A stretch of DNA of 38,852 bases from positions 1-38,852 of the IMG/VR virus record IMGVR_UViG_3300030688_000062; one strand, written 5' to 3'. How positions within the stretch are numbered: position 1 is the stretch's first letter; the number at the start of each line of letters is the position of its first letter. The notes under the pieces are model-generated. The model did no database searches. It saw nothing but the letters and a program-made list of their open reading frames with translations, and was not told the DNA's origin. Shown one piece after another: positions 1,932 to 38,105 of this stretch. Made by a program: the position numbers and the translations under genes. The stretch comes from a virus.

Positions 1932-1932
1932 T

Positions 1933-4095: not shown

Positions 4096-4110
4096 ACGTA
4101 TTCTTGTGAT

Positions 4111-4305: not shown

Positions 4306-5177
4306 GTACCTCAACCTTTCCTACTTCCCTTGACTCTTATACCAACCCGTCCTCGACGAACGCAGTTAATAGCCCGTCCTTAGCTGCCGGTCAAACCTTA
4401 CAGAATGATTCTTTAGCTGCTCTTGAGACTAAGATTGGTATAGATAACAGCTCGGTGACAACTACGATTGACTACAAAGTCAAGAACGCCGCAAGCCCGA
4501 TAAACTCGGCCATCACGCAGCTTCAGCAGAACGTAATCACGCTTTACACGGACACTGGTTCTGCTAATACGTATGTCATTACTCCCACCGTCTCTATCGG
4601 AGCGTATGCCAAGGGACAGGTTTTCTTTTTTATCGCTGCTAATACGAATACTGGAGCTTCCACTCTGAACGTCAACGGTCTAGGTGCAAAGGCTATTAAG
4701 TATCAAGGGATTGTACTTCCCGCTGGCTTTATCCAAACTCTTACGACAGTCCAAGTGATGTATGATGGGACTCAGTTCCAGTTACTTAACCCGGCTAGTA
4801 GCTTACTTGGTTTTGTAGATATTACGGCAGGTTTCATAACCACCAACACTACAGAAACTCCTATAACTGGAATGACTATTACTGTAAATGTACCCGCTGG
4901 AAGAAGGGTAAGATTGATATTATACGTCGAACATATCAGTACAACTGGCGTTCCAGGTGCTCTTATCATTGCTATTTCTGAGTCTGGTGTTGATCTGCAA
5001 AGGAATCAGACGAATAATGCTACATCAACTCGTCCAGATTTAGGAGGACCAGTTATACATATCCTTTCCCCAACAGCAGGTGCTCATACTTATTATGCTC
5101 AAGTTTCCCAAAACACTTCAGGGACTCTAACTATTGACTCTGGTTTTCATACACAGTTATCCGCTGAACTCATCTAA
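4302..5177 (+). CDS. Tail fibre/appendage-like structural protein
   Basis: A 291-residue protein coupled to the previous gene by an ATGA overlap. Residues 1-50 contain FPTSLDSYTNP followed by a Ser/Asn-rich stretch and LAALETKIGID, an N-terminal module common in phage tail or virion appendage proteins. The middle and C-terminal parts are Thr/Gly/Ile-rich beta structure, consistent with a trimeric fibre or jelly-roll end domain. It probably attaches to the neck or tail and may contact the host; the receptor role is inference. Confidence 0.65.
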   Translation: MSTSTFPTSLDSYTNPSSTNAVNSPSLAAGQTLQNDSLAALETKIGIDNSSVTTTIDYKVKNAASPINSAITQLQQNVITLYTDTGSANTYVITPTVSIGAYAKGQVFFFIAANTNTGASTLNVNGLGAKAIKYQGIVLPAGFIQTLTTVQVMYDGTQFQLLNPASSLLGFVDITAGFITTNTTETPITGMTITVNVPAGRRVRLILYVEHISTTGVPGALIIAISESGVDLQRNQTNNATSTRPDLGGPVIHILSPTAGAHTYYAQVSQNTSGTLTIDSGFHTQLSAELI

Positions 5178-6100: not shown

Positions 6101-6101
6101 T

Positions 6102-7649: not shown

Positions 7650-7658
7650 TCATTACCT

Positions 7659-8639: not shown

Positions 8640-9225
8640 GCCTGTCATTATCGGTTCCATTGCCGCGCTTGTCGTGGGGGGTAGCCTTATTGCGCGTGCC
8701 GAGATAGGTAACAATCAAGTAGACCCTACGCCTAGCCCGATAGTGGCTTCAGACAGTCCTACGCCTGTAGCTACGGTTGTCCCTACGGACACTCCTTCTC
8801 CAACCGATACGCCCGTTAGTACTCCTGAGCCTACGGCAGACCCCACTCCTTCAGTTACCCCGTCTCCAGTCCCCACCCCGGCTTATACGCTGAATACCGG
8901 AGATGATTATTCCTATGAGTATCCTTCCGATTGCCAGTCTCCTAGCTTGCAGCTGGTAGCCTGTCCTGACAGTTCTTACGTCATAACTGAATCGACAAGC
9001 GACTTTTTAACGCAGCTTGGCGACGACGTTTCAACGTACCGAGAGATAACTGTTTCCGGGAAAGATGCTTACGAAAGCACCATAAAGCTGAATACGGTCG
9101 TAGAGACTGGAAACGGCTCGATTCTCATACAGGGACGCCAGGGTACTTCGATATCGAGCTGGCCGTCAACCAATATGTCCGATCCGGATTACCAACATCT
9201 GCTTGACACGTTCACGTTGAAGTAG
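8623..9225 (+). CDS. Secreted or membrane-anchored Pro/Thr-rich protein
   Basis: A 200-residue protein. Residues 1-27 form a signal peptide or N-terminal anchor (KAKPVIIGSIAALVVGGSL, then a possible AxA site at ARA). Residues 35-90 are a TP/SP-rich linker like those of bacterial surface proteins. Residues 90-200 form a compact domain with two Cys (CQSPSLQLVAC) and beta strands. Encoding an exported protein inside a tail gene cluster is unusual. It might alter the host envelope or block superinfection. It overlaps the fibre gene by 17 bases. Function unknown. Confidence 0.65.
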   Translation: MFQKAKPVIIGSIAALVVGGSLIARAEIGNNQVDPTPSPIVASDSPTPVATVVPTDTPSPTDTPVSTPEPTADPTPSVTPSPVPTPAYTLNTGDDYSYEYPSDCQSPSLQLVACPDSSYVITESTSDFLTQLGDDVSTYREITVSGKDAYESTIKLNTVVETGNGSILIQGRQGTSISSWPSTNMSDPDYQHLLDTFTLK

Positions 9226-9254
9226 TTGCAAAACCCGCCCGTAGGGTAGACAAT
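9226..9254 (+). promoter_or_regulatory. Promoter before the ejection-protein genes
   Basis: TTGCAA (9226-9231), 17-nt spacer, GACAAT (9249-9254). A TATATA follows at 9260. It fits a start near 9261, 16 nt before the ATG at 9277. It lies in the only gap (51 nt) of this part of the cluster. Confidence 0.5.
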
Positions 9255-9276
9255 AGCGGTATATAACCCTTCTCAA

Positions 9277-10338
9277 ATGGCCACCTATACTGTTGCCGCC
9301 GGAGACACAGCGATTCAGATCGCACAGAAGCTAGGACTTTCTTCCTATACCCAATTAGGCGGCCTTGGTAGTGATCCCTCGCTCATCCACCCGGGCCAGG
9401 TACTGACCTATGGCGCATCCTCGCCGTCCCAAGCCACATCCACTTCTTCCACACCTAGTACGTCTTCCGCTCCTTCCTCTGGCGGCTACTCTTCCGACGT
9501 GCCTTCCGGCGACCCTTTGCTCTCCCAGGACATGGCTTCGCTGAACAGCGACCAGTCAGACTTGCAGACGCTTGCCGCCCAGCAGGCCGCCGCCCTGAAC
9601 ACCCAGTCTGCTACCAACCAGGGGACCATTGCCAACGCATACCAGACTGCCGAGGGGCAGACAGGACTCCAAGGCATCCAGAACACCTACAACAGCCTTC
9701 AGGACGCCTACACGAAGGCCCAGGGACAAGCAAACGCCGCCCCGGTAAACGCCGTCCTTGACTCTGCCGGGCATGATGTGATGAGCTCTACCGCTGCTGC
9801 CGCCGGCACTGCCAACGCCCTGGTGCCGGGACTTACCGCCTCCAACGACGCCCTTGCCCTCGTGCCTGCCCAGAACGCCCTCAATACGGCCATGCAGAAC
9901 ACCCAGAACATCGCCGGCAACATCGTCACCGGGGCGCAGCTGAACCAGGCCGGGTTTACCGCCGGCCAGCAGATCCAGCTTCAGGCCCTTGAGTCGAAGA
10001 TTACCCAGGGCCAGCAACTGACCAACGACGAGTACAACAGCTATACCTCCCTTAAGTCGGCCCAGATCGGCGCTGCCGCTCAGGTTCAGTCTGCCAATAT
10101 CGGAGCGGGAGCGACTGAGGCTGCCGCTACGACCACCGCTAACGCTAGCGAGCAGAATACCCAGGCTACCAACGCCTTGAACAAGATAATAGCCGAGCTT
10201 GAGAATCCCGGGGCCTCGGTCAACGGAAACGGCGTAGGAAGCGTCAATCTTCAGGAAGCCTTAACTGGGCAGTCATCGAACGGAACGCCATCTTCCATCG
10301 CCGCTATCAACTCGGCTCTTTCTAAGTACGGATTCTAA
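9277..10338 (+). CDS. LysM-domain internal virion protein
   Basis: A 353-residue protein. Residues 1-47 are a LysM domain (YTVAAGDTAIQIAQKLG ... HPGQVL), a peptidoglycan-binding fold. A Ser/Thr/Pro linker (48-75) precedes a long Ala/Gln/Asn-rich helical region with no membrane segment. The next gene starts inside its stop codon (TAATGG). LysM plus long helices next to a large ejection-like protein suggests a virion protein that engages the cell wall during DNA delivery. I see no lytic catalytic domain. Confidence in LysM is high, in the role moderate. Confidence 0.75.
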   Translation: MATYTVAAGDTAIQIAQKLGLSSYTQLGGLGSDPSLIHPGQVLTYGASSPSQATSTSSTPSTSSAPSSGGYSSDVPSGDPLLSQDMASLNSDQSDLQTLAAQQAAALNTQSATNQGTIANAYQTAEGQTGLQGIQNTYNSLQDAYTKAQGQANAAPVNAVLDSAGHDVMSSTAAAAGTANALVPGLTASNDALALVPAQNALNTAMQNTQNIAGNIVTGAQLNQAGFTAGQQIQLQALESKITQGQQLTNDEYNSYTSLKSAQIGAAAQVQSANIGAGATEAAATTTANASEQNTQATNALNKIIAELENPGASVNGNGVGSVNLQEALTGQSSNGTPSSIAAINSALSKYGF

Positions 10339-12461
10339 TGGCCACGCCAACCCTCAACCTGGCCCCTGACGTTCAGACCCGGTACAACCAGGCCATGAGC
10401 GACCCTTCCATCTCCTCCAACCCGCAAGCGGTACAACAGCTTACGGCCCAGGCACAGCAGCAAAGCCAGCAGGAACAGCAGTCGCAAGCACCGGCCGCTC
10501 CCGCACAACCGGCTGCCCCTTCCTACGGCGGCCTTAAGGGCGTATTCCTTAACTCTAACAGCCCCCTGAACCTCCAGAATCTGGGGGGTACGCTCGGCAT
10601 GGTCGGCACGGACGCCGTAGGAGCCCTGCTTGCCCCTGAGACCGGCGGCCTCTCATTGGCTGGCGCTATCCCGCTTGGGGCGGCTTTGGCTGCCAGCGGG
10701 AGCGTTGCCGGGAAGGCCGCCCAGAACAAGCTGACCGGGCAGAACGTCACTTCAGGTCTTGGTGGGGCGGCAGCGGAAGGAGCCATCGGAGGCGCTGCCG
10801 GTCCAGTTATCGGGAAGGTCGTAGGAGGCGTTACCGACGCCCTTTCAAGTAAGCTCATTAGCGAGGGAGACGATGCCGCTGTTAAGTCGCTCGGCCTTTC
10901 CCAAGCCAACCGTAACGCCTTCTTTAAGGCGACTGGCCAGACTGCCTCTGACTTTCTGAAGGAGCAGAACCTGGCCGGTGAGGGAACCGATGCTGTAAAG
11001 GCCGCCCAGGACGCCCTGCAGACCCAGTACAATAATATCGCCCGCAACTCGGGAATCAAGGTTCCTATCGCCCAGGTGGTAAAGGATCTGGCCGGATCAC
11101 TCGGAGATTCCGATCTGACTACTCCCCAGGGCGAGGCTTCAGCAGACCAGGCATACTCCACGCTTAAGACCATTATCAAGAACCTTCCCCAGGACGGGGA
11201 GGGGAACGTGGATATCGGCGACCTTACCAATGCCAAGTCAAATATCCAGTCCCAGACAAACTTTGACGCTACTCGTCCGGGTGCTACCCAGAAGGCTAAC
11301 GAGGCCGTTTCCAACAGCCTTATGGGTACGATCAACAATGCGGCTGAAGAAGCCGGACTTACCTCGACTGACGGAAAGCCGCTGTCTGTCATCGGTCAGA
11401 CCCTCAACAGGTTCCGCACCATTACCGGAATGATAGGTAGCAAGGAACCCGGTACAGTCGGCTCGGGAACGCTTGCCAAGGTGATCGGCCACGCCATACT
11501 TCCTGGCACCGGAGCCGTGATAGGTGGAGCTATCGGAGGCCTTACCGGGGGAGAGTCTGGGGCGGCAACAGGAGCTGAGATCGGGGGAGGGATAGGGGCG
11601 GGATCTGAGGCGCTACTGCAATCCCCCGCAGTCCTTAGCAAGCTCGCTACCGTTTTGCCAGCTATTAGTTCCAAGTTGGCCCCGCAGGTTTCCGATGTGG
11701 CTGCAAAGGCAGGACTGACGGGTACGGAAGCCGCTACCGCCTCCCTTGGGCCATCACTTTCAACGCCGCTTTCCGTAGCTACCTCCATACCGGGTCGCCT
11801 AGTTGGCAACTCCGCTATCCAGGATACGGGTACCGTACTCGGACAGCAGTCCCTTCCGGCTTCTCCCTCCCTTTCGGACGTATCTTCTAGCACCAGTCCT
11901 GCTGCTAGCCAGCCTACTGGTTCGGCTGATCCGCTCCAGTCGGGAATAGCCGCTATCCAGGCAGGGCAGCCACTTTCAACTGCCCAGTACACCGCCCTTG
12001 AGGATGCTACTTCCCTTATGCCTAAGCTTCAGGCAGGGATTACGGCGGCGTACCAGGCTAGCAATCCCACGGTAACGCAGGGGCTTGGGATCGCCTCGGG
12101 TGTTACTAACAGCCTTCAGAACCTTTACAACGCCGCAGGCGGCGGCCAGGGACTGGTGATGGGAAACATCGAGAACGTCCTTTCCCCCATCACTAAGGGG
12201 ACGGCAAACGCCTACAACCAGCAGAAGCTGGCGCTGGGCCAGGAGATCATCAACCAGATCTACGGCTCTACCGGTACCGCTTCCGACCGTGATCAGGTGC
12301 TTTCCCTTATTCCTGACCTAAGCGATTCTCCTGCTAACGCCGCTAGCAAGCTTGCCCAGCTTAGAAACATGATTCAGACGAGACTCCAGGCTACCCAGGG
12401 AGCTACCCCTACCAGTGTCACGGCGACAAACTCCGGCCCGTCCCTTAGCTTGCAGCCATGA
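10338..12461 (+). CDS. Large internal virion / DNA-ejection protein
   Basis: A 707-residue protein. The N-terminus is Gln/Ala/Pro-rich (1-65). Residues about 85-165 and 390-425 hold Gly-zipper segments (AIGGAAGPVIGKVVGG; AVIGGAIGGLTGG), likely membrane-inserting. The rest is Ala/Gln/Ser-rich helix. Size, composition and place at the end of the tail cluster match ejection proteins of podoviruses that form a channel in the host envelope. It is coupled to the LysM gene (TAATG) and to a 30-codon gene (ATGA). Confidence 0.65.
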   Translation: MATPTLNLAPDVQTRYNQAMSDPSISSNPQAVQQLTAQAQQQSQQEQQSQAPAAPAQPAAPSYGGLKGVFLNSNSPLNLQNLGGTLGMVGTDAVGALLAPETGGLSLAGAIPLGAALAASGSVAGKAAQNKLTGQNVTSGLGGAAAEGAIGGAAGPVIGKVVGGVTDALSSKLISEGDDAAVKSLGLSQANRNAFFKATGQTASDFLKEQNLAGEGTDAVKAAQDALQTQYNNIARNSGIKVPIAQVVKDLAGSLGDSDLTTPQGEASADQAYSTLKTIIKNLPQDGEGNVDIGDLTNAKSNIQSQTNFDATRPGATQKANEAVSNSLMGTINNAAEEAGLTSTDGKPLSVIGQTLNRFRTITGMIGSKEPGTVGSGTLAKVIGHAILPGTGAVIGGAIGGLTGGESGAATGAEIGGGIGAGSEALLQSPAVLSKLATVLPAISSKLAPQVSDVAAKAGLTGTEAATASLGPSLSTPLSVATSIPGRLVGNSAIQDTGTVLGQQSLPASPSLSDVSSSTSPAASQPTGSADPLQSGIAAIQAGQPLSTAQYTALEDATSLMPKLQAGITAAYQASNPTVTQGLGIASGVTNSLQNLYNAAGGGQGLVMGNIENVLSPITKGTANAYNQQKLALGQEIINQIYGSTGTASDRDQVLSLIPDLSDSPANAASKLAQLRNMIQTRLQATQGATPTSVTATNSGPSLSLQP

Positions 12462-12550
12462 TATGGGACTTTCTAAGGATATTCTGCCTGGTTATGCTGT
12501 ACGCCTGGTTGCGTGCTATTTGGGATATAATTAAGGAAAACAACCTATGA
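12458..12550 (+). CDS. 30-residue membrane peptide gene
   Basis: ATG at 12458 overlaps the stop of the large ejection gene (ATGA) and its own stop overlaps the next start (ATGA at 12547). The product is MIWDFLRIFCLVMLYAWLRA plus ten residues: one hydrophobic, Trp-rich transmembrane helix with a short charged tail. Tight coupling on both sides argues that it is a real gene. It could be a holin-like or ejection-accessory peptide; nothing in the sequence decides. Confidence 0.6.
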   Translation: MIWDFLRIFCLVMLYAWLRAIWDIIKENNL

Positions 12551-12876
12551 ACCCAGAAGACGCAGTAGCAAGACAAGCCATGATCGCCCGCATGTCCGGC
12601 AGCCCCATGCCGGTTGCCTCCCAAATGAGCTCACAGGCCCCCGTGGCGGCTCCGAGCTCCCCGGTGATGAATCCGCCCGGCCCGGTACGTCCTCCTCAAT
12701 TACAATTAGGTGACGTGCAGCACAAGGCTACCCCCACCGACTCGGACAACTTAGCCAAGGCCCTGCTTCCCGGTACCGCTCACCTTGACCCGCACGTTCA
12801 GGCCATGTCCAAGGCGCTCTTGCAACAGCTCATTCCCTACCTAGGGGCAGGCCAAGCGTCTCCGCGAGTGCCCTAG
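12547..12876 (+). CDS. Pro/Ala/Met-rich small virion-cluster protein
   Basis: A 109-residue protein coupled by ATGA to the preceding 30-codon gene. Residues 15-60 are Pro/Ser/Ala/Met-rich and disordered, followed by a helical end (HVQAMSKALLQQLIPYLG). It is the last gene of the rightward structural block, and its 3' end overlaps the convergent gene 12830-13099 by 47 bases. Probably a minor structural or assembly protein. Confidence 0.55.
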   Translation: MNPEDAVARQAMIARMSGSPMPVASQMSSQAPVAAPSSPVMNPPGPVRPPQLQLGDVQHKATPTDSDNLAKALLPGTAHLDPHVQAMSKALLQQLIPYLGAGQASPRVP

Positions 12877-15511: not shown

Positions 15512-15853
15512 ATGGCAATAAACCCAGAGGCGTACCGAGATCCAAATCGGGTAACTGCCCTCGTAGCCATTTCTAACGACGGTGCTAACACGACCGATCC
15601 AATGACCGTTTCCTATACACGTTCTGACACTGGTGATACCCAAACAGTAATGGTGCCTGCCGGATCACCTCCGGATGAAGTCACGAAAGCCGTACAAGTT
15701 GATTTAGACATAATCTTAGCCAACGCTACCATTGACTACAGTCCTATTATCAGTTCCGTAGTTTCTCCAACGGCTCAAGTAATTACCGAAGTAGATGCCT
15801 CTCCGGTCTTCCAAGACCCTTCTCCTGATGCAAGTGTTGCACCACTTGGTTAA
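15512..15853 (+). CDS. Small Thr/Pro-rich hypothetical protein
   Basis: A 113-residue protein divergent from groES. The ATG follows a TA-rich stretch with no Shine-Dalgarno sequence. The first 70 residues look beta-rich (VTALVAISNDG; MTVSYTRSDTGDTQTVMVPAG), like a small Ig-type or decoration fold. The C-terminus is Pro/Ser-rich and acidic. No signal or membrane segment. Function unknown. Confidence 0.6.
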   Translation: MAINPEAYRDPNRVTALVAISNDGANTTDPMTVSYTRSDTGDTQTVMVPAGSPPDEVTKAVQVDLDIILANATIDYSPIISSVVSPTAQVITEVDASPVFQDPSPDASVAPLG

Positions 15854-15887
15854 AGGGTAATATCATTTATTTGACTAGCGTACCATC

Positions 15888-15944
15888 ATGGCAAACGAAG
15901 CAAACAACGCCGATGGGGTAGCAGTACTTGGTGTGTGGACCTAA
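15888..15944 (+). CDS. Possible 18-codon peptide
   Basis: ATG to TAA reading MANEANNADGVAVLGVWT. It lies between two genes, 17 nt after a TTGACT. Nothing but an open frame and position supports it. Confidence 0.2.
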   Translation: MANEANNADGVAVLGVWT

Positions 15945-15945
15945 T

Positions 15946-15975
15946 TTGCATCCTTCCCCTTTGCAGACGTATAAT
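15946..15975 (+). promoter_or_regulatory. Promoter for the lysis cluster
   Basis: TTGCAT (15946-15951), 18-nt spacer, perfect TATAAT (15970-15975). Start of transcription is expected near 15982, 22 nt before the ATG at 16004. It is one of the clearest promoters in the genome and lies directly before the coiled-coil/endolysin/holin genes. Confidence 0.75.
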
Positions 15976-16003
15976 AACTTTATATATTCGTAAGTAAGCA
16001 GAA

Positions 16004-16267
16004 ATGACTATCCAAGACGTTGAGAATAGCTTGAGAGCTGATTTTGGCACCAAGCAACAGCAGGAGTTAGCGGCTTTTGAAGCCACGGTATCTGAGGACG
16101 CTAAGACCAAGTTCAAGGACGTTGTAGCTTCCCTGGCTACTGAAGTGGAGCAGATCAAGGCGACTCTTGAAGCTAAGACCGCCGAGCTTACCACCGCTCA
16201 AAGTCAGATCCCCACTGAAGAGGCTACCGACACCATTCCTGAAGCATCTGAGCCAGTACAGGGCTAA
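16004..16267 (+). CDS. Small coiled-coil protein
   Basis: An 87-residue protein. Residues 5-68 form a heptad-patterned helix (LAAFEATVSEDAKTKFKDVV), followed by an acidic Thr/Glu/Pro tail. First gene after a strong promoter and 2 nt before the endolysin gene. It may be a structural or lysis-timing accessory. It resembles the acidic coiled-coil product of 17369-17671 in design. Confidence 0.6.
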   Translation: MTIQDVENSLRADFGTKQQQELAAFEATVSEDAKTKFKDVVASLATEVEQIKATLEAKTAELTTAQSQIPTEEATDTIPEASEPVQG

Positions 16268-16269
16268 TT

Positions 16270-16971
16270 ATGATCCTCTACGCCCAAAACAATCAGGCTT
16301 GGGCAGGTCTACCAATTGGTACCTCTAGTTATCAAATGGGGCCGTATGGCTGCCTAACGACTGATATTGCTATGGCCTTAGCTGATGCAGGCTATGCCTT
16401 AAATCCAGGGGATGTGGTGCGTCAGCTTTCAGCCTCTAATGCCTACACCTCAAGTAGTTATGTCTACGGGGCAGGCCTGCTTATCTGGTCGGCACTTTCT
16501 AAGGCTTACCCTCAGATCACCTACTACTACGGCACTCAGGGTACCTACAAGCTGGTACAGGTCATGGTAAGCGGGGTATATGAGCACTGGCTACTTCAAC
16601 TTCCTGACGGTACATATTGTGATCCTGAGTATGGCGATACCGGCATGAAGCCTAACTACAAGCCAACCGGAACAGTACATAGTATTAGTATTACCCCGGC
16701 TCCTGTGCCTGTAGTTACTACGGCTTCTGTGAATATTCCGGTTACCGGATTCTATGTGGTACTAAATGCCAATATGAATGTTCGAGATCAGCCTACTACC
16801 GGAAGTGCTGTGTATACTACCTACGCTAAGGGCTCAGAGATTGAGTGCGACGGCACTGTTACTGGCGATGATATTAATGGGAATACCAACTGGTACCATA
16901 CCCATTTGCACGGTAAGTTCTTGAGTGCTGCATACTGTTCTGTAATTAACCAACCTAGTAACCCTGCCTGA
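16270..16971 (+). CDS. Endolysin: C39-like cysteine peptidase plus SH3
   Basis: A 233-residue protein. Residues 1-130 match papain-like C39-type peptidase domains used as phage lysins: YAQNNQAWAGLPIG at the start, the catalytic Cys28 in GPYGCLTTDIAM, His106 in VYEHWLLQ and a following Asp (CDPEYGD). Residues about 158-225 are a bacterial SH3-type wall-binding domain (LNANMNVRDQPTTGSAVYTT). No signal peptide, so it needs a holin; a candidate follows 1 nt downstream. It probably cuts peptidoglycan cross-bridges or stem peptides at late lysis. Confidence 0.8.
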   Translation: MILYAQNNQAWAGLPIGTSSYQMGPYGCLTTDIAMALADAGYALNPGDVVRQLSASNAYTSSSYVYGAGLLIWSALSKAYPQITYYYGTQGTYKLVQVMVSGVYEHWLLQLPDGTYCDPEYGDTGMKPNYKPTGTVHSISITPAPVPVVTTASVNIPVTGFYVVLNANMNVRDQPTTGSAVYTTYAKGSEIECDGTVTGDDINGNTNWYHTHLHGKFLSAAYCSVINQPSNPA

Positions 16972-16972
16972 T

Positions 16973-17269
16973 ATGACTAACAAAGTGACCGCTTATTTAT
17001 CCGCTGGTGTTGATGAGTCTTTGATTACCTTTGCCAAACACTTAGCGTCTGCTGTGTTCGTAGCTGCTGTAAACTACGCCGTACAACACTTTACCAAGAG
17101 TACGATCACCAGTATCCGTACCTTGGCTCCTTTTGTAGTTGGATTTCCTATCGTAACCTCTCTATCAAAGTGGCTCACTACCACAGCAAATAACGATCCG
17201 GCTGTTGGCAAGGTGAACCCTATCCCCTCTACTTTTTCGGTTGGAGACACAACCCCTCCCGTCGCCTAG
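16973..17269 (+). CDS. Holin candidate
   Basis: A 98-residue protein starting 1 nt after the endolysin stop. Two hydrophobic stretches, at about 20-42 (FAKHLASAVFVAAVNYAV) and 52-66 (LAPFVVGFPIVTSL), could span the membrane. The tail is short and polar. Size, topology and adjacency to the lysin fit a class II holin; no specific family motif is seen. Confidence 0.6.
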   Translation: MTNKVTAYLSAGVDESLITFAKHLASAVFVAAVNYAVQHFTKSTITSIRTLAPFVVGFPIVTSLSKWLTTTANNDPAVGKVNPIPSTFSVGDTTPPVA

Positions 17270-30205: not shown

Positions 30206-30958
30206 ATGCGAAGAATGGTAAATACAAAGATAACGGAGAAGGATTCCTTTTTGGATATGCCTCCTACGGCAAGACTTCTCTATTATGATTTATTAGTTCG
30301 TGCTGATGATGATGGATTTATTACTCCTTATCATGTTATACGAATGACAGGGGCTTCTGCTGATGATTTGAAGATACTTATTGCCAAACAATTTTTATAC
30401 CAATGGAACGATGGAGTGATCGTTTTATTACATTGGCGCGAACATAATAATGTAAAAGCTGATCGTTACCAATCTTCAGAATATTCTCCACGACTTCGTC
30501 AGATAGCAAAATTATACGTTCTAGGAGCACGTGATAATGGTTCCAAAATGGTTCCAAAACGGTTCCAAAACGGTTCCATTCTGGTTCCGCAGGATAGGTT
30601 AGGTAAGGATAGGTTAGTAGAGGATACTAATACCCCCTTACCCCCTACGGTGGACGGGGTGGAAAATATTCAAGAAATGAAGAATCTTTGGAAAGATTTG
30701 GTAGGGACAACACTACGAAATCATGTTGAGGAAAACTTAAAGGCGTATACGTCACTTAAAAAAGATTTTACAGATCTAAATACATTACTTAAAGCAGTTA
30801 GAATGATTCGTGCCGATGTATACCAGCCGAGAAATTTACAGAATAAGCTTATAAACTACGTTGGTTTGAAGGAGAAGATTGAAGAGGTTGAAGCATTTAT
30901 TCAGGTTAAAGTTGACCAGAAACATATTTCTAATTCTAAGATTTTGGAGGCATCATGA
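30206..30958 (+). CDS. Replication initiator (winged-helix, O/DnaD-like)
   Basis: A 250-residue protein. Residues 1-95 match the N-terminal domain of phage replication initiators: KDSFLDMPPTARLLYYDLLVRADDDGF, then ADDLKILIAKQFL, and VIVLLHWREHNNVKADRY. A linker (105-145) is encoded by DNA repeats, including KDRL/VED runs. The C-terminal part (150-250) is a helical DnaD-like or helicase-loader region. It would bind origin DNA and load the host helicase. The gene starts after a GGGAAGAAAGG sequence and a regulated promoter. AT content is higher than in the structural genes. Confidence 0.8.
   Translation: MRRMVNTKITEKDSFLDMPPTARLLYYDLLVRADDDGFITPYHVIRMTGASADDLKILIAKQFLYQWNDGVIVLLHWREHNNVKADRYQSSEYSPRLRQIAKLYVLGARDNGSKMVPKRFQNGSILVPQDRLGKDRLVEDTNTPLPPTVDGVENIQEMKNLWKDLVGTTLRNHVEENLKAYTSLKKDFTDLNTLLKAVRMIRADVYQPRNLQNKLINYVGLKEKIEEVEAFIQVKVDQKHISNSKILEAS
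30539..30617. repeat. Origin-like iterons inside the initiator gene
   Basis: Five tandem 11-bp units starting GGTTCC (30539, 30550, 30561, 30572, 30583), three of them GGTTCCAAAAY, are followed by two 12-bp repeats AGGATAGGTTAG (30591, 30606). Eleven bp is about one helical turn and is not a multiple of three, so conservation acts on DNA, not on the peptide. Placement inside the initiator gene is as in lambdoid origins. Confidence 0.7.
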
Positions 30959-31464
30959 CCAAGTACGTAACCTTATTTGACGGAACAGAACTATCTTTTC
31001 CTGATGAGTCTATGGCAGTTGTAGAAAAAGCAATGACTGATAAATTACCTATTCGGCTCCAAGGTAATTTAGTGAATGGATCTTCCATTGCTAAGATTAG
31101 TGAAATGACAAAGAATCCAGAGTACGGACCCCATATAGCGGCTCGCTCATCGTCAATTATGCAGTTAGCTGCAGGAGTATTTGAGGATAAACCTCAAGGT
31201 ATGTCGGATGAAACACGGCGTAAGATCATGGACACGTTGCGGAAAACAGATGATACGGGAGTTTTGAAGAAGAAAGCGTATTTTGCCTCAAACCGTTTAG
31301 CGTACCTGCTGCATGACCCAAAAGGTAAGAAGTGGGGACTTTTGGAGTGGGAACGGTTCAACTCCGAGCATCCAGAGCCATGGGAAGAATATGAGAAGTT
31401 GATGGGGCATGAAGAAGCATATAGCGACTTACAGCAAAATCTCCCGGAAGATATTATTGCTTAG
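30955..31464 (+). CDS. Hypothetical replication-operon protein
   Basis: A 169-residue protein coupled to the initiator by an ATGA overlap. N-terminal strands (VTLFDGTELSFPDE), a helical middle (ARSSSIMQLAAGVFED; DETRRKIMDTLRK) and an acidic C-terminus (HPEPWEEYEKLMGHEE). No helicase or primase motifs. Coupling suggests a role with the initiator, such as helicase loading or its control. Confidence 0.55.
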   Translation: MTKYVTLFDGTELSFPDESMAVVEKAMTDKLPIRLQGNLVNGSSIAKISEMTKNPEYGPHIAARSSSIMQLAAGVFEDKPQGMSDETRRKIMDTLRKTDDTGVLKKKAYFASNRLAYLLHDPKGKKWGLLEWERFNSEHPEPWEEYEKLMGHEEAYSDLQQNLPEDIIA

Positions 31465-31608
31465 AATGGCTTATAAAGGGCTTGAAATATCGTAAAGGTT
31501 ACATTGTCCAAGTTGTAACGAAACTCACGATTTTGACCCCTCTACGCAATAAACTAGGCCCTTGGCTAAGTGGGGGAGCAGGTGCATTTTTATAAGACGT
31601 GTGGGGTG

Positions 31609-31637
31609 TTGACTATTTTTGCTAATTAGCAAATTAT
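31609..31637 (+). promoter_or_regulatory. Palindrome-containing late promoter
   Basis: TTGACT (31609-31614), 17 nt, AATTAT (31632-31637). The spacer contains a perfect 16-bp palindrome TTTGCTAATTAGCAAA (31618-31633). The ATG follows 6 nt after the -10 box. This promoter would start the packaging/head block. The rest of the 179-bp gap shows no gene. Confidence 0.5.
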
Positions 31638-31643
31638 GGAGCT

Positions 31644-32036
31644 ATGACATGCGCCAACTGCGGAGCCACCACATCACGAGTTAAGATTTATTTGGGAAAG
31701 GAAACTTGTCATTCCTGTGCCGGATTTAGTGAGAGCGGCGGAGTGCGCACAGACGGGATTATGTCCCGGGAGCGAGTGAGAATGGACGCTGTGAAGTACG
31801 AGGGTGATGCGCTAAACCCTTGGGCATATTCCAAGTCTGAAAAGCACTTTGTACCAAACGAGGAGTTTGTGAAACGCCACGCCTCCAACGCCCACAACTT
31901 CTTTACGCCGGCAGACTTGGCCAAGAGCCACCCGAAACTTGCAGGAAAGTTAGGGAAGGGGAGAGAGCAGTATGCAGCGGCCGAGGGAGTGGGGGAGAGT
32001 GCTCCCGAACTTCAAAAAGTATTTACAGTAGCCTAA
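31644..32036 (+). CDS. Zinc-ribbon protein upstream of terminase
   Basis: A 130-residue protein. Residues 3-25 have CANCGATT...CHSC, a four-Cys zinc site. The rest is helical and basic, with HNFFTPADLAKSHPKLAGKL. Such small zinc proteins often open packaging operons of tailed phages and may be transcription or assembly factors. The ATG is effectively leaderless. Confidence 0.6.
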   Translation: MTCANCGATTSRVKIYLGKETCHSCAGFSESGGVRTDGIMSRERVRMDAVKYEGDALNPWAYSKSEKHFVPNEEFVKRHASNAHNFFTPADLAKSHPKLAGKLGKGREQYAAAEGVGESAPELQKVFTVA

Positions 32037-32046
32037 ATTATCCGGT

Positions 32047-32118
32047 ATGGATACGACAACCCAGAAGAACACTTTGGTAAACGATGATAATGAGGGCTTT
32101 GACGAGGTGATAATTTGA
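32047..32118 (+). CDS. Possible 23-codon peptide
   Basis: ATG to TGA, MDTTTQKNTLVNDDNEGFDE and three more residues. It fills part of the gap before the small terminase gene. A TATACT at 32127-32132 could be the -10 box for that gene. Weak support. Confidence 0.2.
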   Translation: MDTTTQKNTLVNDDNEGFDEVII

Positions 32119-32164
32119 CGCGCAAGTATACTACGATCTTCAACTTCATTCAAAAAATGGCGTA

Positions 32165-32521
32165 ATGCCTAAGCACGCTACCTCAACCAGCTTCAAGAAG
32201 GGACAGCAGGCCGCTCTTGGAAACGACAAGACGGCCAAGCTTTCCACGCTCCTGGAGATAGCGCTTAAAAGTGCAAATACCCGCAAGGAATATGAGCAGG
32301 CAAGAACTCTAGGAGCGGCTATAGCTACCGATTTCGCCAACTCATACTGGCAGGCCAAGACCGTCCAGGATAAGAAGGCGGTATTCTCCGAGCTCATGGA
32401 CCGCACTGAGGGCAAGGCGACCCAGCCCGTGCTGCACGGCGAGGATAACGACCATCCCTTCACTTCCATTTTTCTAAAGCCAGAAAAGCTTCCTGATGAT
32501 CAAGATCACGGCGACTCCTGA
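32165..32521 (+). CDS. Terminase small subunit candidate
   Basis: A 118-residue protein directly before the large subunit, overlapping it by 26 bases. The N-terminus is basic (TSFKKGQQAALGNDKTAKLS), then a helical core (LLEIALKSANTRKEYEQARTL) and a DRTEGKATQP motif seen in small terminase-type proteins. It would recognise phage DNA and regulate the motor. Assignment rests on size, motif and position. Confidence 0.65.
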   Translation: MPKHATSTSFKKGQQAALGNDKTAKLSTLLEIALKSANTRKEYEQARTLGAAIATDFANSYWQAKTVQDKKAVFSELMDRTEGKATQPVLHGEDNDHPFTSIFLKPEKLPDDQDHGDS

Positions 32522-34889
32522 TATCCTGGCGAAGTACGACCGCGTCTGGATACCGCATCCCGGACCCCAGACAGAGTTACTACGGCGCAATGAGGATGAG
32601 ATATTGTACGGCGGAGCCCGGGGCGGCGGCAAGTCCGACGGCGGCCGGGCCTGGATTACCGACCACGTGGACAATCCCCTGTATAGGGCTCTGGTAATAC
32701 GAAAGAACGCCGGAGACCTTGCCGACTGGGTAGACAAGGCCCGGTATTGGTACGTCCCGATGGGGGCGGTTTTTGCGTATCAGCCGACAGTAATCACTTG
32801 GCCGAGCGGCGCAAAGATCATTACCGGCCACCTCAAGGACGCTGACGCTTATACTAAGTACCAGGGCCAGGAGTTCCAGCGAATGCTCATCGAGGAGCTG
32901 ACGCAGATACCGGACAAGAAGCGCTATGTCCAGCTCATTGGATCCTGCCGCTCAACGGTTCCCGGCATTAGGCCTCAGGTTCTTAACACGGCCAATCCCG
33001 GCAACATCGGCCACCAATGGGTAAAGGAGCGCTTCATCGACCCGGCTGTTCCCGGGACGAGGTTCAAGGACGCCACCGGCCGCAGCTTCATCTTCATACC
33101 CTCGACCATCGATGACAACCCGACGCTGACGGAGAACGACCCGGGATACGTCCGCTACCTCGACAGCATCAAGGAGACCGACGAGAACCTGTGGAGGGCC
33201 TGGCGCTACGGCGACTGGTCCATCTTCGTGGGCCAGGTATTTGCCAAGTTCCGGCCCGACACGCACGTCCTGAACCGCTTGCCTGACGGCGTAAAGCTAT
33301 CTGACTGCAAGAAGATCGTTGGCTTTGACTGGGGCTATAACGCCCCGGGAGCTGCTGTGTTCATCGCTGTAACGCCAAAGAACCGCTGGGGAGTCAAACA
33401 CTACTACCAGTACCGGGAGCTCTACCTGACCAAGAATGACCCCGCCGAATGGGCGGCTCGCCTGGCCGAACTCAACGAGATTGACAACATCGACTGGATG
33501 GTGCTGCCGCACGACTGCTACAGCGAGGCTCAAGGCCATAAGAGCATCGAGAAGGTGTTCAAGGAATATATGCCTGGACTTAATTTTATCCGCGGAAAGA
33601 CGCTAAGTAAGGGTGCCCGTCACCAGCGCGTAGCCATCATGCAGTGGTGTCTGAACGCCGACGATAATGAGCCTGAAGGTCCTCCACGCTTCCGGATGCT
33701 CTCACGCTGCACCGACATGATACGGACTCTACCTAACCTGGTATACGACGAGAACGACATCGAGGACATCGACTGCTTCGTAACGGGAACCATGATATCT
33801 ACCCAATCCGGCGATATTCCAGTCGAGTTGGTCAAGACCGGCGATATGATACTCACGCCTGTCGGTCCTCGGAAGGTCATAGTGTGCGGTGAGCCAAAGG
33901 AGTCGCCTACCTGGACCGTCAAGTTGAGCAACGGAAGCGAGTTGCAGGGCACACCGAACCATAAGGTATTCGTTAAGGGAAATGGTCTTACTGAGTTGCG
34001 ATCATGCCTATGTGATGATATACTAGAGACATGGAATACAACATATCTGACAAGCTTACCTCAGTTGAATACAGAGGTATTACCTACCGACGCTATCATG
34101 GACGGCGGTACTTCGAACCGAACGGAAGCTACCTTGCAAAGGGGTATACTTCGCTTCATCGCCAAGTCTACATCGACAACAATGGCCTTATACCGGAAGG
34201 CATGCACGTTCATCACAGGGACCACGATACGGGCAACAATGACCCTGATAACCTTGAGCTTGTTGAGAAGGGGAAGCATGCGCTACTACACTACCGCGAG
34301 CGAGTCCGCTCAGGGGAGCTCCCAGACCACCTGGACAAATGGCGCAAGAGTCCAGAAGGGAAGCGAACCCTCCGTGAGAATCTGGCTAAAGCTCGTGAGA
34401 GAAGCCCTGTCCGGCAACTATCGTGCGGTCATTGTGGACAGCATATTAAAACGCAGCACCAGACCAAGCGGTTCTGTTCAGAAGCATGCTCGCATGCCGC
34501 TCGGAATGCCGATCATGTCAGAAAATGTCCAATCTGCGGGAATGACTTCGTCTACAAAAACAAACGCAGTGGCCGCACCTGTTCGTATCGTTGCGGTTGG
34601 ATCCTCAGAAAGACAGCCAGTCTACCGCCTACGGGTTGAGCAGGCCCACCTCTACTATGCAAACGGTATTCTCGTAACTAACACAGACGGGGAGGACCAT
34701 CTCTTTGACGCGGCGAGTCTTGCGCTCATGACAGAGATATCGGATGCTCCTTCCGGCCGCGTCATCCAGACCAATGTATCCTCCTTATTTAAGCCCACAG
34801 AGACCTTTGGACTGTCCCGAGATGGCCTGGTCGTTCCGCGTGACGCCCTGGATGAGCTTAGAGAGAGCTTGCCAAACTACGGTAATTAG
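32496..34889 (+). CDS. terL: Terminase large subunit with intein
   Basis: The 797-residue open frame is 494 residues of terminase plus a 303-residue intein. The packaging ATPase has Walker A GGARGGGKS (39-47) and Walker B RMLIEE (about 129-134). The RNase H-like nuclease has Asp278 in FDWGYNAP and the last acidic motif TDGEDHLFDA (730-739). The intein is inserted exactly before that motif, between Asp426 and Thr730, so splicing is needed to rebuild the nuclease site. The protein cuts concatemers and pumps DNA through the portal. Inside the intein lies a second gene in another frame (34031-34639). Confidence 0.92.
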   Translation: MIKITATPDILAKYDRVWIPHPGPQTELLRRNEDEILYGGARGGGKSDGGRAWITDHVDNPLYRALVIRKNAGDLADWVDKARYWYVPMGAVFAYQPTVITWPSGAKIITGHLKDADAYTKYQGQEFQRMLIEELTQIPDKKRYVQLIGSCRSTVPGIRPQVLNTANPGNIGHQWVKERFIDPAVPGTRFKDATGRSFIFIPSTIDDNPTLTENDPGYVRYLDSIKETDENLWRAWRYGDWSIFVGQVFAKFRPDTHVLNRLPDGVKLSDCKKIVGFDWGYNAPGAAVFIAVTPKNRWGVKHYYQYRELYLTKNDPAEWAARLAELNEIDNIDWMVLPHDCYSEAQGHKSIEKVFKEYMPGLNFIRGKTLSKGARHQRVAIMQWCLNADDNEPEGPPRFRMLSRCTDMIRTLPNLVYDENDIEDIDCFVTGTMISTQSGDIPVELVKTGDMILTPVGPRKVIVCGEPKESPTWTVKLSNGSELQGTPNHKVFVKGNGLTELRSCLCDDILETWNTTYLTSLPQLNTEVLPTDAIMDGGTSNRTEATLQRGILRFIAKSTSTTMALYRKACTFITGTTIRATMTLITLSLLRRGSMRYYTTASESAQGSSQTTWTNGARVQKGSEPSVRIWLKLVREALSGNYRAVIVDSILKRSTRPSGSVQKHARMPLGMPIMSENVQSAGMTSSTKTNAVAAPVRIVAVGSSERQPVYRLRVEQAHLYYANGILVTNTDGEDHLFDAASLALMTEISDAPSGRVIQTNVSSLFKPTETFGLSRDGLVVPRDALDELRESLPNYGN
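33996..34024 (+). promoter_or_regulatory. Promoter inside the intein for the HNH gene
   Basis: TTGCGA (33996-34001), exactly 17 nt, TATACT (34019-34024), with the HNH ATG 6 nt downstream at 34031. The layout matches the leaderless-type promoters at 28714 and 31609. It lies within intein coding sequence. Confidence 0.6.
34031..34639 (+). CDS. HNH homing endonuclease nested out of frame in the intein
   Basis: A 202-residue protein, in a different frame from terminase. Residues about 38-92 form an HNH core: GYTSLHRQVYIDNNG, IPEGMHVHHRDHDTGNNDPDNLE and HALLH, with catalytic HH and downstream Asn/His. Residues 130-195 carry three Cys-rich zinc modules (CGHCG..FCSEAC; CPICG; CSYRC) like DNA-binding tails of homing enzymes. 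The last about 20 codons overlap the C-terminal splicing block of the intein, so about 60 bases code for two proteins. It probably cleaves intein-less terminase genes and spreads the element. Confidence 0.85.
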   Translation: MEYNISDKLTSVEYRGITYRRYHGRRYFEPNGSYLAKGYTSLHRQVYIDNNGLIPEGMHVHHRDHDTGNNDPDNLELVEKGKHALLHYRERVRSGELPDHLDKWRKSPEGKRTLRENLAKARERSPVRQLSCGHCGQHIKTQHQTKRFCSEACSHAARNADHVRKCPICGNDFVYKNKRSGRTCSYRCGWILRKTASLPPTG

Positions 34890-34904
34890 CATCATACTGG
34901 CACC

Positions 34905-35171
34905 ATGGTAACTAATGACGAACATGAGCCGATTACGGTTCGACTGTCCTACAAACCCTGGGCCGAGCGTCGCCTTAGACCCTTCTACTGTGTGCGCTGC
35001 GGAAAGTGCGTCTGCGAGATCACTGGCGACGCCACCGAGATCATTCCCGGCGCTCCGAATGATGAGGAGATAGGGGAGCTCGACATTGCTCACCACGCCC
35101 GATGTGGGGGAAACATCCGTATAAGTCACGGCGTACACGTCCGTTGCACGGCAACTTACTATTTCAACTGA
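34905..35171 (+). CDS. Small Cys-rich protein
   Basis: An 88-residue protein between terminase and portal. CVRCGKCVC near residue 30 and HHARCGG near 67 could bind one zinc. Beta-rich otherwise. Packaging or assembly accessory by position; no family recognised. It starts 15 nt after the terminase stop and ends 1 nt before the portal ATG. Confidence 0.6.
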   Translation: MVTNDEHEPITVRLSYKPWAERRLRPFYCVRCGKCVCEITGDATEIIPGAPNDEEIGELDIAHHARCGGNIRISHGVHVRCTATYYFN

Positions 35172-35172
35172 T

Positions 35173-37113
35173 ATGGAAATCCACGAGCTCACTAAAGAGG
35201 AATCTAGGCCCGTAACTACTGTTCCGGAGCTCTCTATCTCCCTGTCCGATTCTGAGCTCCTGGAGCTCATAAAGCGCAAGACCGACGAGTACAAAGCTTG
35301 GCTCACGGCCCACAAGATTGACCAGCGGGCTAAGATGAACGTCGAGTACTGGAAGGGCGTCCAGGAGACCAAACGCAAGCGCGGCATGCCTGATACCCTA
35401 TACAAGAACAATATCCTGCACCGTGACCTGGCCACTCGCGTCCAGAATGCAACCAGTCGCATGCCGGACGTGGTGGTAATGAGTCCCCAGCAGGATGAGG
35501 ACCCCAGCGTCAAAGAGGACACCAAAAAGATCGAGGAATGGCTGAAGATCCGTATTGACTCCGATGTGACCCGCCGCCTTGCCCAGTCCGCTGTGCGCGA
35601 TAACCACCTCAAGTTCCGCGGCATCTGGAAGTATCGCTACGATAAAGCCCGTAAGGACGCCGTGATTGAGCGTCTACGTCCTGAGGACGTGGTGCTGGAC
35701 TCCACCGCTCGCATCCCCGAGGATGGCTATACTGCCGACAATATGGAGTTCATCGGGGAGTGGATGGAAGAGTATACCTCTGTCGTGTTCAATATGTTCC
35801 CGGACAAGAAAGAAGAGTTGATGGCCGATCTTTCTAAAGAAGCTGCAGCCGGAGGAAAACCAGCGTCTTCAAAGATCCGGTTTCTGCAGGTTACAGCCCG
35901 CGTGTCTGGCAACGACGGAAGCCCTAAGCTCATACTCGTCAACTCCTACAAGGATATCCTACTTTCCAAGTCTCCTCATCCTTTTTGGGACGAGCGCGAG
36001 GGAAGCGACATTGAGTTTGGCTTGGTCCCCGAAGAAAAGCTCGACCCAGCTCTTGCTGCCGCGGTTCTGCCAAGCCTTGGCTTGGATGTTCCCCGCCACA
36101 AGCCCAAGCGCTTCAATCATTTCCCCTGGCCTCGCATGCCTTACAGCATATTCAGTGGCGAGAACCTTGGCGACGGCCCGATTGACGATACTACCGTGTT
36201 TGAGCAGTCCCTAAGCCTCCAGGACATCGTCAACCTGCGTGGAGACCAGATAAGCCAGACCAACGAATGGGCGGTTCCCAAACTGGTTATGGCGACGACC
36301 GCCATGACCGAGGCTAAGGCCTCTAAGATCTCCCGCGACCCGTCGGAGATCCCTATGGTCGAGTTGAAGGAAGGCCAGTCCATAGATGGAGTCGTCAAGG
36401 AGATCCAAGGCTCACCCGCAAGCGCTGCCCTCTACCAGGACCTCCAGCAGTCTATACAGGCTATTGATGCCCATTTCTCCACCTCAGCTGCTGTACGTGG
36501 TGAGGCTGTAGAGCCTGAATCAGGCGTATCAAAGCAGATTAGCCGTGAGGGAGACCTCTCAGCGTCTGATGACATAGCCCAGACCATGGTGCAGCGCTGC
36601 GTAGAGGAGGCCGCTAACTGGCTTGTGCAGCTGGCTAAGATCTACTTCGATGATGATAACCGCGCAAGTGCTCCAGGACCTGATAGATCGCTCATTTCTG
36701 CCTCAATTAACAACAAGCTCATCCCCGACAATATCCAGATTGTGGTCAAGGCTAACGCTGTGGACAAAATGACCCAGCGCAATATGGCCATGAACCTTGT
36801 GAACAGCAAGGGAATCGACCCGATGAGCCTGTACGAGGACCTGGAGTTTCCCAATCCTAAGGAGCGTACCCAGCGCCTCATGGACTTCCTGGCCGCTGAG
36901 GCTCAGGGTCCGACAAAGTATCTGCAAGACATTGGAGTTAATGCCGCCGAACCCGCCAACAAGCAGAACGAAGCTACTACTACAGCTCCTGCCGCACCAG
37001 CACCGGCCGCACCAGCAGCCGCTGGACCTCCACAAGCTCCCCAGCCTCCTACGGCTCCAGCTCCTGCCGGCCCACCACCGCCTGCGGCTCTCGCACCACC
37101 TCCTCAACAATAA
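35173..37113 (+). CDS. Portal protein
   Basis: A 646-residue protein, the size of podovirus-type portals. An N-terminal helical region (YKAWLTAHKIDQRAKMNVEYW), a wing domain with VVMSPQQDEDPSVKEDTKK, a stem/clip region around DTTVFEQSLSLQDIVNLRGDQIS and a Pro/Ala-rich C-terminal tail (600-646) are seen. It forms the dodecameric ring at one capsid vertex and the DNA conduit for terminase and neck proteins. Gene order terminase-portal-scaffold-capsid supports the call. Confidence 0.88.
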   Translation: MEIHELTKEESRPVTTVPELSISLSDSELLELIKRKTDEYKAWLTAHKIDQRAKMNVEYWKGVQETKRKRGMPDTLYKNNILHRDLATRVQNATSRMPDVVVMSPQQDEDPSVKEDTKKIEEWLKIRIDSDVTRRLAQSAVRDNHLKFRGIWKYRYDKARKDAVIERLRPEDVVLDSTARIPEDGYTADNMEFIGEWMEEYTSVVFNMFPDKKEELMADLSKEAAAGGKPASSKIRFLQVTARVSGNDGSPKLILVNSYKDILLSKSPHPFWDEREGSDIEFGLVPEEKLDPALAAAVLPSLGLDVPRHKPKRFNHFPWPRMPYSIFSGENLGDGPIDDTTVFEQSLSLQDIVNLRGDQISQTNEWAVPKLVMATTAMTEAKASKISRDPSEIPMVELKEGQSIDGVVKEIQGSPASAALYQDLQQSIQAIDAHFSTSAAVRGEAVEPESGVSKQISREGDLSASDDIAQTMVQRCVEEAANWLVQLAKIYFDDDNRASAPGPDRSLISASINNKLIPDNIQIVVKANAVDKMTQRNMAMNLVNSKGIDPMSLYEDLEFPNPKERTQRLMDFLAAEAQGPTKYLQDIGVNAAEPANKQNEATTTAPAAPAPAAPAAAGPPQAPQPPTAPAPAGPPPPAALAPPPQQ

Positions 37114-37122
37114 CGAATCTAT

Positions 37123-37479
37123 ATGGCAAAAAAGCGGGGCGGTACGCCCCAGAAGCCACAACCAGACGACGAGCTACTCGCGGTATTCGCACCGGAACCT
37201 GAGCCCGTTGGCGTGCGCGAGACCTACGGTACTGCCCTACCTGACGATACTTCCGGCCCTAAGCGCGAAGGCGACGAAGGGGCGGGGCTTACCGCTCTAT
37301 TCGGGGGTTCGAAGTCGCCACCTATTGATGTAAAGACAGTGGAAAGTCCTCCTGACTTCGGACCCATAGTAAGTTCCGTGGACGAGTACATTAAGGACCA
37401 GGTACTGACCGAGATGTATGGCACCACAACCCCATCTGAACATGACAAGATCCAATTAGCCATAAAGAGAATGCTATGA
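37123..37479 (+). CDS. Hypothetical protein between portal and scaffold
   Basis: A 118-residue protein. Acidic and Pro/Gly-rich for 90 residues, then a C-terminal helix (SEHDKIQLAIKRML). Its stop overlaps the scaffold start (ATGA). Probably head assembly; no family recognised. Confidence 0.55.
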   Translation: MAKKRGGTPQKPQPDDELLAVFAPEPEPVGVRETYGTALPDDTSGPKREGDEGAGLTALFGGSKSPPIDVKTVESPPDFGPIVSSVDEYIKDQVLTEMYGTTTPSEHDKIQLAIKRML

Positions 37480-38105
37480 CTGCAGAAGAAATGGAAGCGA
37501 AGATGGCGCAGCTTGAGGCCAAGAACGCCGAACTTGAAGCAAAGATACCAGCTCCAGTAGCTACAATTGACCCAGACCTACAATACAAGCCTGGAACCTG
37601 GAAGGCACTTGACGAACGCGAGACGGCCAAAGCCGAAGCCGCTGCCGTTAAGGTCCTAAAGGAAGCCGAGGAAAAGAAAGACGCTGAGAAGAAACGTCAG
37701 GATGAGGCAGTAGCCGAACAGAAAAAGAAGATCGATGAGGCTTTTGAGGCCCTTCAAAAAGACGGGATTGTAGCCGAAGTGAAAGATCGAAACGACCCTA
37801 ATGATCCAGGAGTCCGTCAACGCAAACAGGTTCTGGCTTCTCTCGTGCGCTCTGGTGGACAACATGTTGACGTTGAGGCTAGAAAGTTTAAGACCGCTTG
37901 GGATCGAGGTTTAGAATATGATGATGTTCGTAATGAATTCGTGCCTGTCGGACAAGGTACTAACCCCAACCGTGATGCATACGTCGGCTCTAGCGCGAAT
38001 CGGGTCGCTACCCCTGCAGCTCCCGGAAAGATTAGTATGAGAGGGGTAGGCGGAGATCTGGACGAGGCTCGTCGCCGATGGGAACTCACTAACGGGAAAA
38101 TATAA
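37476..38105 (+). CDS. Scaffolding protein candidate
   Basis: A 209-residue protein. Residues 1-110 are a Glu/Lys/Ala coiled coil (EEMEAKMAQLEAKNAELEAK and on). The C-terminus has basic and Gly-rich stretches (SMRGVGGDLDEARRRWE) that could bind coat protein. Position directly before the capsid gene and high helicity are typical of scaffolds that guide procapsid assembly. Confidence 0.7.
   Translation: MTAEEMEAKMAQLEAKNAELEAKIPAPVATIDPDLQYKPGTWKALDERETAKAEAAAVKVLKEAEEKKDAEKKRQDEAVAEQKKKIDEAFEALQKDGIVAEVKDRNDPNDPGVRQRKQVLASLVRSGGQHVDVEARKFKTAWDRGLEYDDVRNEFVPVGQGTNPNRDAYVGSSANRVATPAAPGKISMRGVGGDLDEARRRWELTNGKI

Follow-up and report, generated by a model that had tools for sequence, protein, structure and literature searches.

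Textbook inteins carry an in-frame endonuclease, so that splicing and cutting evolve as one protein. The terminase large subunit gene (terL) in the window analyzed here (the whole 38,852-nt stretch of IMG/VR record IMGVR_UViG_3300030688_000062) appears to follow another plan: a sequence-only reading had proposed that it contains an intein, which in turn contains a complete HNH endonuclease gene in a different frame. This locus raises the question of whether such nesting is real, how two proteins could be read from the same DNA, and whether the arrangement is peculiar to one virus.

The terL Intein and Its Empty Site

The host frame is assigned to the terminase large subunit (PHROGs), and the insertion lies in the C-terminal nuclease domain of the enzyme (Table 1). 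Hint/intein HMMs match both ends of the insert, with terL-frame residues 427–458 matching Hint_2 (Pfam, 2.4e-7) and residues 468–729 matching Intein_splicing (Pfam, 1e-4); neither Intein_splicing nor the TIGR intein models reach their curated cut-off scores. The boundaries are fixed exactly by a viral contig (L004) that carries the precise empty site: its TerL is 89% identical to that of the window and lacks the insert, with D426 joined directly to T730 (..DENDIEDID/TDGEDHLF.., the slash marking the site), so that the intein extends from C427 to N729 and is followed by a +1 Thr. The insert is also absent from a more distant terL (L005). The intein is a single continuous ORF, rather than halves in separate ORFs, and three other metagenome contigs have a sequence identical to that of the window; thus, the layout is not the error of one assembly.

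Table 1. Features of the terL locus, in window coordinates.
Feature	Position	Strand	Evidence
terL precursor frame, 797 aa, intein included	32496..34889	+	PHROG/Pfam terminase matches
Intein, 303 aa, C427 to N729, +1 Thr730	33774..34682	+	L004 empty site; Hint/intein HMM matches; invariant C1, H63, N303
Hint-N half (blocks A, N2, B; T60, H63), residues 1–86	33774..34031	+	pLDDT 84–97; aligned blocks
Candidate -35 box TTGCGA, 17 nt before -10	33996..34001	+	Consensus match only
Candidate -10 box TATACT, ends 6 nt before HNH start	34019..34024	+	Extended, TG at 34016–34017
HNH endonuclease gene, 202 codons, -1 frame vs. terL	34031..34639	+	PF13392; phrog_15471; AF2 pLDDT 91
Intein-frame reading of HNH DNA: unstructured linker, merely stop-free	34032..34574	+	pLDDT 42–66; substitutions in relatives
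Hint-C half (blocks F/G), residues 268–303	34575..34682	+	pLDDT 90–95; Intein_splicing match to residue 729
DNA common to HNH gene 3' end and Hint-C	34575–34639	+	Intein residues 268–289

The residues associated with splicing are largely in place. The block A nucleophile (C1) is invariant across 38 aligned inteins, block B has its TxxH (T60, H63), and block G ends in N729 followed by T730; C1, T60, H63, and N303 are invariant or nearly so in the alignment. Among relatives, the +1 residue is C (44), T (7), or S (2), counts that depend on intein ends having been placed by the N-C/S/T pattern. The window intein has Thr in place of the penultimate His; this is not disqualifying, because the position is variable among related inteins (H 29, S 15, A 4, T 4, F 1). 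Protein splicing of the window intein is inferred.

In the AlphaFold model of the intein, based on the 38 aligned inteins without rows from annotated phage records, pLDDT is about 84–97 from residue 1 to about residues 86–90 and 90–95 from about residue 270, vs. about 42–66 between the Hint halves, where the overlap is at about 50. Foldseek aligns the whole model to the Mtu RecA splicing domain (TMt 0.75–0.81), with the middle as an insertion, and the best PDB match of the intein sequence profile is the gp41-1 intein (1.4e-18). The HNH protein is modeled with a mean pLDDT of 91, and its closest solved homing endonuclease is I-HmuI, by both profile (E 0.0058) and fold (E 0.04). The models thus predict that the two ends of the insert adopt a Hint fold, and they give a confident, separate fold for the HNH.

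The HNH Gene in the -1 Frame

The -1 frame matches HNH_3 (PF13392, Pfam, 5e-12), and the 202-codon ORF matches an HNH endonuclease family of PHROGs (phrog_15471, 1e-23). The ORF encodes an HNH core and two zinc-finger modules, in which the catalytic residues (H61, H62, N70, H83, H87) are invariant in the alignment and the zinc-binding residues are conserved; its last ~20 codons overlap Hint-C. Cutting of the empty terL allele by this protein, and homing, are inferred. Longer HNH ORFs (266–313 aa) with an additional match to the C-terminal part of the HNH profile were observed in four relatives (L105, L115, L086, L093), in which the intein frame is still open. In the annotated phage records examined, the HNH inside these terL genes carries no annotation, so that mobile endonucleases go unnoticed; the alignment to at least one terminase profile of PHROGs (phrog_30251) extends over the out-of-frame stretch.

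An Open but Unselected Intein Frame Across the Overlap

Stop codons are avoided in the intein frame across the HNH gene: none are observed, vs. 3.35 expected per locus, in 53 non-redundant clusters (4.14 expected for the window alone), where the expectation comes from synonymous recoding with neighboring codon usage. In the equivalent frame of free-standing HNH relatives (n = 17), 5.5 stops are observed vs. 4.8 expected. The overlap class is defined partly by the absence of stops, and neither the stop statistics nor the spacing statistics given below take account of the relatedness of loci; all cluster representatives whose Hint-N lies in the HNH+1 frame met the class definition, and one non-representative member (L142) has a stop in the intein frame. 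An open frame by chance is ruled out by the stop deficit. The same avoidance is visible in the HNH proteins themselves: because ATG followed by A creates TGA in the intein frame, Met is barred before I, M, T, N, and K, and such Met residues number 0 of 129 in overlap HNHs vs. 24 of 62 in split and free ones (Fisher 5e-14).

Six related pairs had diverged enough for comparison: their substitutions peak at codon position 3 of the host frame outside the overlap, and at HNH position 3 (intein position 2) inside it. In the HNH frame pN is well below pS; in the intein frame it is about equal to or higher than pS. This switch in codon position, together with pN/pS, shows that the HNH is a translated, selected protein, and that the linker is only kept open. 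Selection was measured in relatives, as no close allele of the window copy itself was available. The idea that the overlap has a function when read in the intein frame finds no support: the middle of this frame matches no endonuclease family (Pfam, PHROGs), its pLDDT is low, and purifying selection is absent in relatives.

The structural claims of the sequence-only reading therefore held: splice blocks A, B, and F/G in the terL frame (supported by Pfam and L004), a 202-codon HNH gene in a different frame (ORFs and the HNH_3 match), a terL frame that stays open for about 200 codons without meaning (stop deficit, low pLDDT, no purifying selection), and 20 final HNH codons that share DNA with the C-terminal splicing block. 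The three-layer nesting of terminase, intein, and HNH gene that it proposed is likewise shown by computation, through the empty site, stop avoidance, codon-position switch, and folds.

Distribution Among Phages

Both frames, each in its own register, were recovered by tblastn in Tetrasphaera phage TJE1, Acinetobacter phage Highwayman, one Rhodobacteraceae phage, and one human gut phage. Viral contigs scanned with the HNH alignment gave 80 loci; with Hint-N, Hint-C, and HNH HMMs and clustering at 90% identity, 97 loci formed 73 clusters. The overlap layout is present in 53 of the 73 clusters, and in three bacterial genome contigs (L150, L152, L154), giving 56 non-redundant loci. The relative frame is conserved: of the 54 clusters with a detected Hint-N, 51 have it in the HNH+1 frame, the exceptions being two split inteins and one frameshifted copy, and no in-frame member of the window's HNH family occurs among the 97 loci. 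The host is nearly always terL (terminase large subunits make up 9 of 10 host ORFs scanned). Insertion sites read DxD/T-xEDH in the window's group and DH/C-DAxRY in most others; in L036 and L037, the insertion is at the Walker B site.

A sequencing error, which would have refuted the nested reading, is rejected, since more than 50 independent assemblies show the same layout, among them the TJE1, Highwayman, and LS06-2018-MD07 records. The out-of-frame HNH intein is a widespread and old arrangement, not a single oddity.

Two further observations concern individual loci. Four long terL ORFs (1188–1288 aa; L075, L079, L122, L147) seemingly have two inteins, of which the downstream one has the out-of-frame HNH; in L075, L079, and L122, the upstream one carries a LAGLIDADG endonuclease in frame, and in L147 it has only an intein splicing match. 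In two sets of near-identical copies (L073 vs. L074, L142 vs. L113), one copy has a frameshift that breaks the overlap, which in L142 fuses the end of the HNH to Hint-C; these frameshifts are probably assembly errors or recent decay.

Putative Start Signals of the HNH Gene

No Shine-Dalgarno sequence precedes the HNH gene of the window, where the arrangement is TTGCGA-N17-TATACT-N6-ATG; the TATACT box also encodes intein residues D82-I83-L84, and its first T is at -12 from the HNH start. In leaderless (TA-led) bacterial genes, the first T of a TANNNT box is about 12 bp before the start (PMC3160421); the window resembles these genes, with its box at exactly -12, but differs in that the box is inside the coding sequence of another protein. 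The motif by itself is weak evidence, because a promoter scan gives four such sites in 3 kb vs. 2.0 in shuffles.

Comparison across loci is more informative, and conservation of the TANNNT-N6-start spacing is shown by computation. In 22 loci, including the window, TANNNT is separated from the HNH start by exactly 6 nt, and none of these loci has a Shine-Dalgarno sequence. They comprise 14 of 56 overlap loci, for which other spacings give 1.9, and 8 of 18 free-standing ones, for which they give 0.7. Part of the signal in overlap loci stems from an encoded (G)D-x-L motif; free-standing loci have no such coding constraint on TANNNT, and several of them may possibly retain the box by descent from intein copies. 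The codons at the box are rare in GC-rich relatives (AGA at 0.00–0.01 of Arg codons in L109 and L111; AGG, very rare at 0.01, in L094), as expected if the TANNNT box is itself selected. The TANNNT start is present in fewer than half of all loci, and most loci without TANNNT-N6 carry a Shine-Dalgarno sequence (e.g., AAGGAGG in L072 and L123). For the window, it is likely that the HNH start is supplied by a leaderless promoter within the Hint-N codons, although use of this promoter is inferred.

Besides the HNH gene, a Shine-Dalgarno sequence precedes the first start of only 6 of 28 window ORFs (surveyed on the + strand in regions 51–12876, 15512–17269, and 30206–38105). The phage may use a host that does not rely on Shine-Dalgarno sequences; its closest relative, L150, is in a MAG labeled Saccharibacteria.

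Free, Split, and Mini Forms

Between the window and L150, identity is 35% in the TerL N-extein, vs. 52% in Hint-N and about 52–53% in the HNH, with 14 of 16 residues shared at the C end; because the intein and HNH are more similar than the extein, we infer that the element has moved between phages. In the HNH tree, overlap, free, and split loci are intermingled, and well-supported branches require at least four changes of state. The tree does not support a single uninterrupted origin of the overlap state, and it gives no direction for these changes.

Free-standing HNH genes occur directly after terL with an uninvaded site in L083, L107, L121, L153, SN1, and Poludnitsa. The free HNH of L106 is preceded by 12 Hint-N codons (SDALVWDDILHK; cf. 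MDALVWADRLSG in L111), and this fossil indicates that escape out of inteins has also occurred. Apparent split terL inteins were identified in L090, L092, L117, L151 (a Staphylococcus borealis prophage), and L149, in which the IntN ORF ends in a stop and is followed by an HNH gene with a strong Shine-Dalgarno sequence, and the IntC ORF begins within or at the 3' end of the HNH gene. In two Vibrio phages (L069, 1.245.O; L071, 1.238.A), terL ends in a Hint-N half followed by a broad-family HNH and then a separate hedgehog/hint ORF, which is possibly another split terL intein.

A Methanomassiliicoccales virus (vir335; L066) has a terL mini-intein of ~132 aa with no endonuclease, which is likely to be the empty form of this intein type. 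The likeliest origin of the overlap is insertion of a terL-linked HNH into such a mini-intein; because these HNH genes have few stops in their +1 frame, an open overlap is easily reached. Thus, the proposal that an HNH gene invaded a mini-intein held in part: it is likely, yet only part of the history, as it has to be amended by the repeated, undirected switching of states and by the Hint-N fossil of L106.

Comparison With Known Systems

The closest published precedent in the open-access literature searched is the ShiLan domain, published in 2025, in which an out-of-frame HNH is inserted in a phage methylase and a splicing domain is absent (PMC11855218). The insertion is thought to remain in the protein, a leaderless start with no Shine-Dalgarno sequence is suggested by the authors, and in a second ShiLan-like case HNH relatives are also free-standing beside the host gene (PMC11855218). 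In both ShiLan and the window, a complete zinc-finger HNH gene is read in another frame while the host frame stays open, and our direct check of the ShiLan record (JN020143) shows the same -1 relative frame. In the ShiLan HNH, zinc fingers flank the core on either side, and its match to the HNH profile used here is weak (31 bits). ShiLan gp65 has no match to the Hint-C HMM, and only background matches to the Hint-N and whole-intein HMMs (E 0.16–0.5). In the window, unlike ShiLan, the host gene is the essential terL and a Hint domain surrounds the HNH, by which the host protein can be restored.

The TerL inteins of mycobacteriophages BAKA and Bethlehem have an in-frame LAGLIDADG endonuclease and are in the N-terminal ATPase domain (PMC5050341). 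They share with the window a terL host and a single ORF with Hint plus an endonuclease between blocks B and F, whereas the window has its HNH in the -1 frame and its intein in the C-terminal nuclease domain. Fractured genes, in which the two halves of a split intein flank a free-standing endonuclease gene (Dassa et al., 2009, cited in PMC8228797), resemble the window in the placement of a separate endonuclease gene between intein halves. The window differs in that one continuous ORF overlaps the HNH, so splicing would be in cis; among relatives, L090/L151 and L149 resemble the fractured-gene type. I-HmuI shares the HNH core and is related to the window HNH by profile and fold, but is located in a group I intron, whereas the window HNH is in an intein and has different C-terminal zinc-finger modules.

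An out-of-frame endonuclease inside a true intein was not found in the open-access literature searched (subscription papers were outside the scope). The premise of the sequence-only reading, that the endonuclease of known inteins is in frame, therefore held for the literature found, the published out-of-frame HNH being outside an intein (PMC11855218).

Proposed Mechanism and Rival Explanations

The likely explanation is a mobile terL intein whose homing endonuclease is a separate gene in the -1 frame, where splicing, cutting, homing, and promoter use are inferred. Reading of the terL frame would produce a single precursor with Hint-N, an unstructured linker of ~180 residues, and Hint-C; the two Hint halves would fold together and splice the intein out, thereby restoring TerL. 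Initiation at the internal ATG (34031), served by a leaderless promoter in the window and by a Shine-Dalgarno sequence in many relatives, would yield a free HNH protein from the same DNA. This protein would cut intein-less terL genes, and repair would copy the intein and HNH into the cut gene. The linker would have no function, being barred only from gaining stops and thereby constraining the HNH sequence.

We lean, without strong conviction, toward a bolder reading: an old class of phage element in which an intein (for excision) and an HNH (for spread) are encoded by overlapping frames, with the endonuclease promoter in Hint-N codons in a large subset, and with the HNH cassette moving into and out of terL inteins to give embedded, split, and free forms.

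Two rivals are unlikely. The first is that an ancestral in-frame HNH domain underwent two compensating frameshifts and was rescued by internal initiation. In-frame endonuclease domains also sit between blocks B and F, and HNHs of other families do occur in frame within inteins (L044, L046, L054, L058); against this, none of the 97 loci has this HNH family in frame, free-standing homologs are common beside terL, and a related terL has an HNH-less mini-intein (L066). The second is a decaying element with both frames still open, in which intein splicing or HNH cutting has been lost in this phage. The penultimate Thr speaks for decay, as does the lack of a close allele with which to measure selection on the window copy (the nearest relative, L150, is 53% identical in the HNH); however, the HNH catalytic and zinc-binding residues are conserved, identical copies occur in three metagenomes, and the extein of the packaging enzyme is intact. 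This enzyme, the terminase, is essential.

Expression of the HNH as a TerL-IntN-HNH fusion by -1 programmed ribosomal frameshifting is very unlikely. The relative frame is always -1, as this would require, but in the window only the 12 nt preceding the ATG are open in both frames, and they contain no slippery heptamer; such a heptamer is present in only 3 of 53 loci, the HNH genes have their own Shine-Dalgarno or TANNNT-N6-start signals, and free-standing homologs exist. Removal of the insert as RNA by an HNH-bearing group I or other intron, with the Hint match incidental or decayed, has in its favor that HNH genes of the I-HmuI kind commonly reside in group I introns, but is all but excluded by the lack of any Rfam match in 32400–35300 even at E 1 (hence no known intron and no group I ribozyme core), the frame kept open in more than 50 lineages, the invariant or nearly invariant C1, T60, H63, and N303, and the Hint fold.

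Implications

In the preferred reading, a mobile terL intein with its endonuclease in the -1 frame, splicing and cutting are uncoupled yet share DNA, which is a third solution beside fusion and splitting, and an endonuclease gene can enter an intein without prior in-frame fusion. A leaderless start or a Shine-Dalgarno sequence is a concrete candidate answer to how a hidden endonuclease is expressed, a question that is open for ShiLan. The loci also amount to more than 50 naturally overlapping pairs of genes that are clearly asymmetric, one frame being selected and the other merely kept open. Because the layout recurs in more than 50 distinct phage lineages, it likely represents a widespread and seemingly unrecognized way to build a selfish element.
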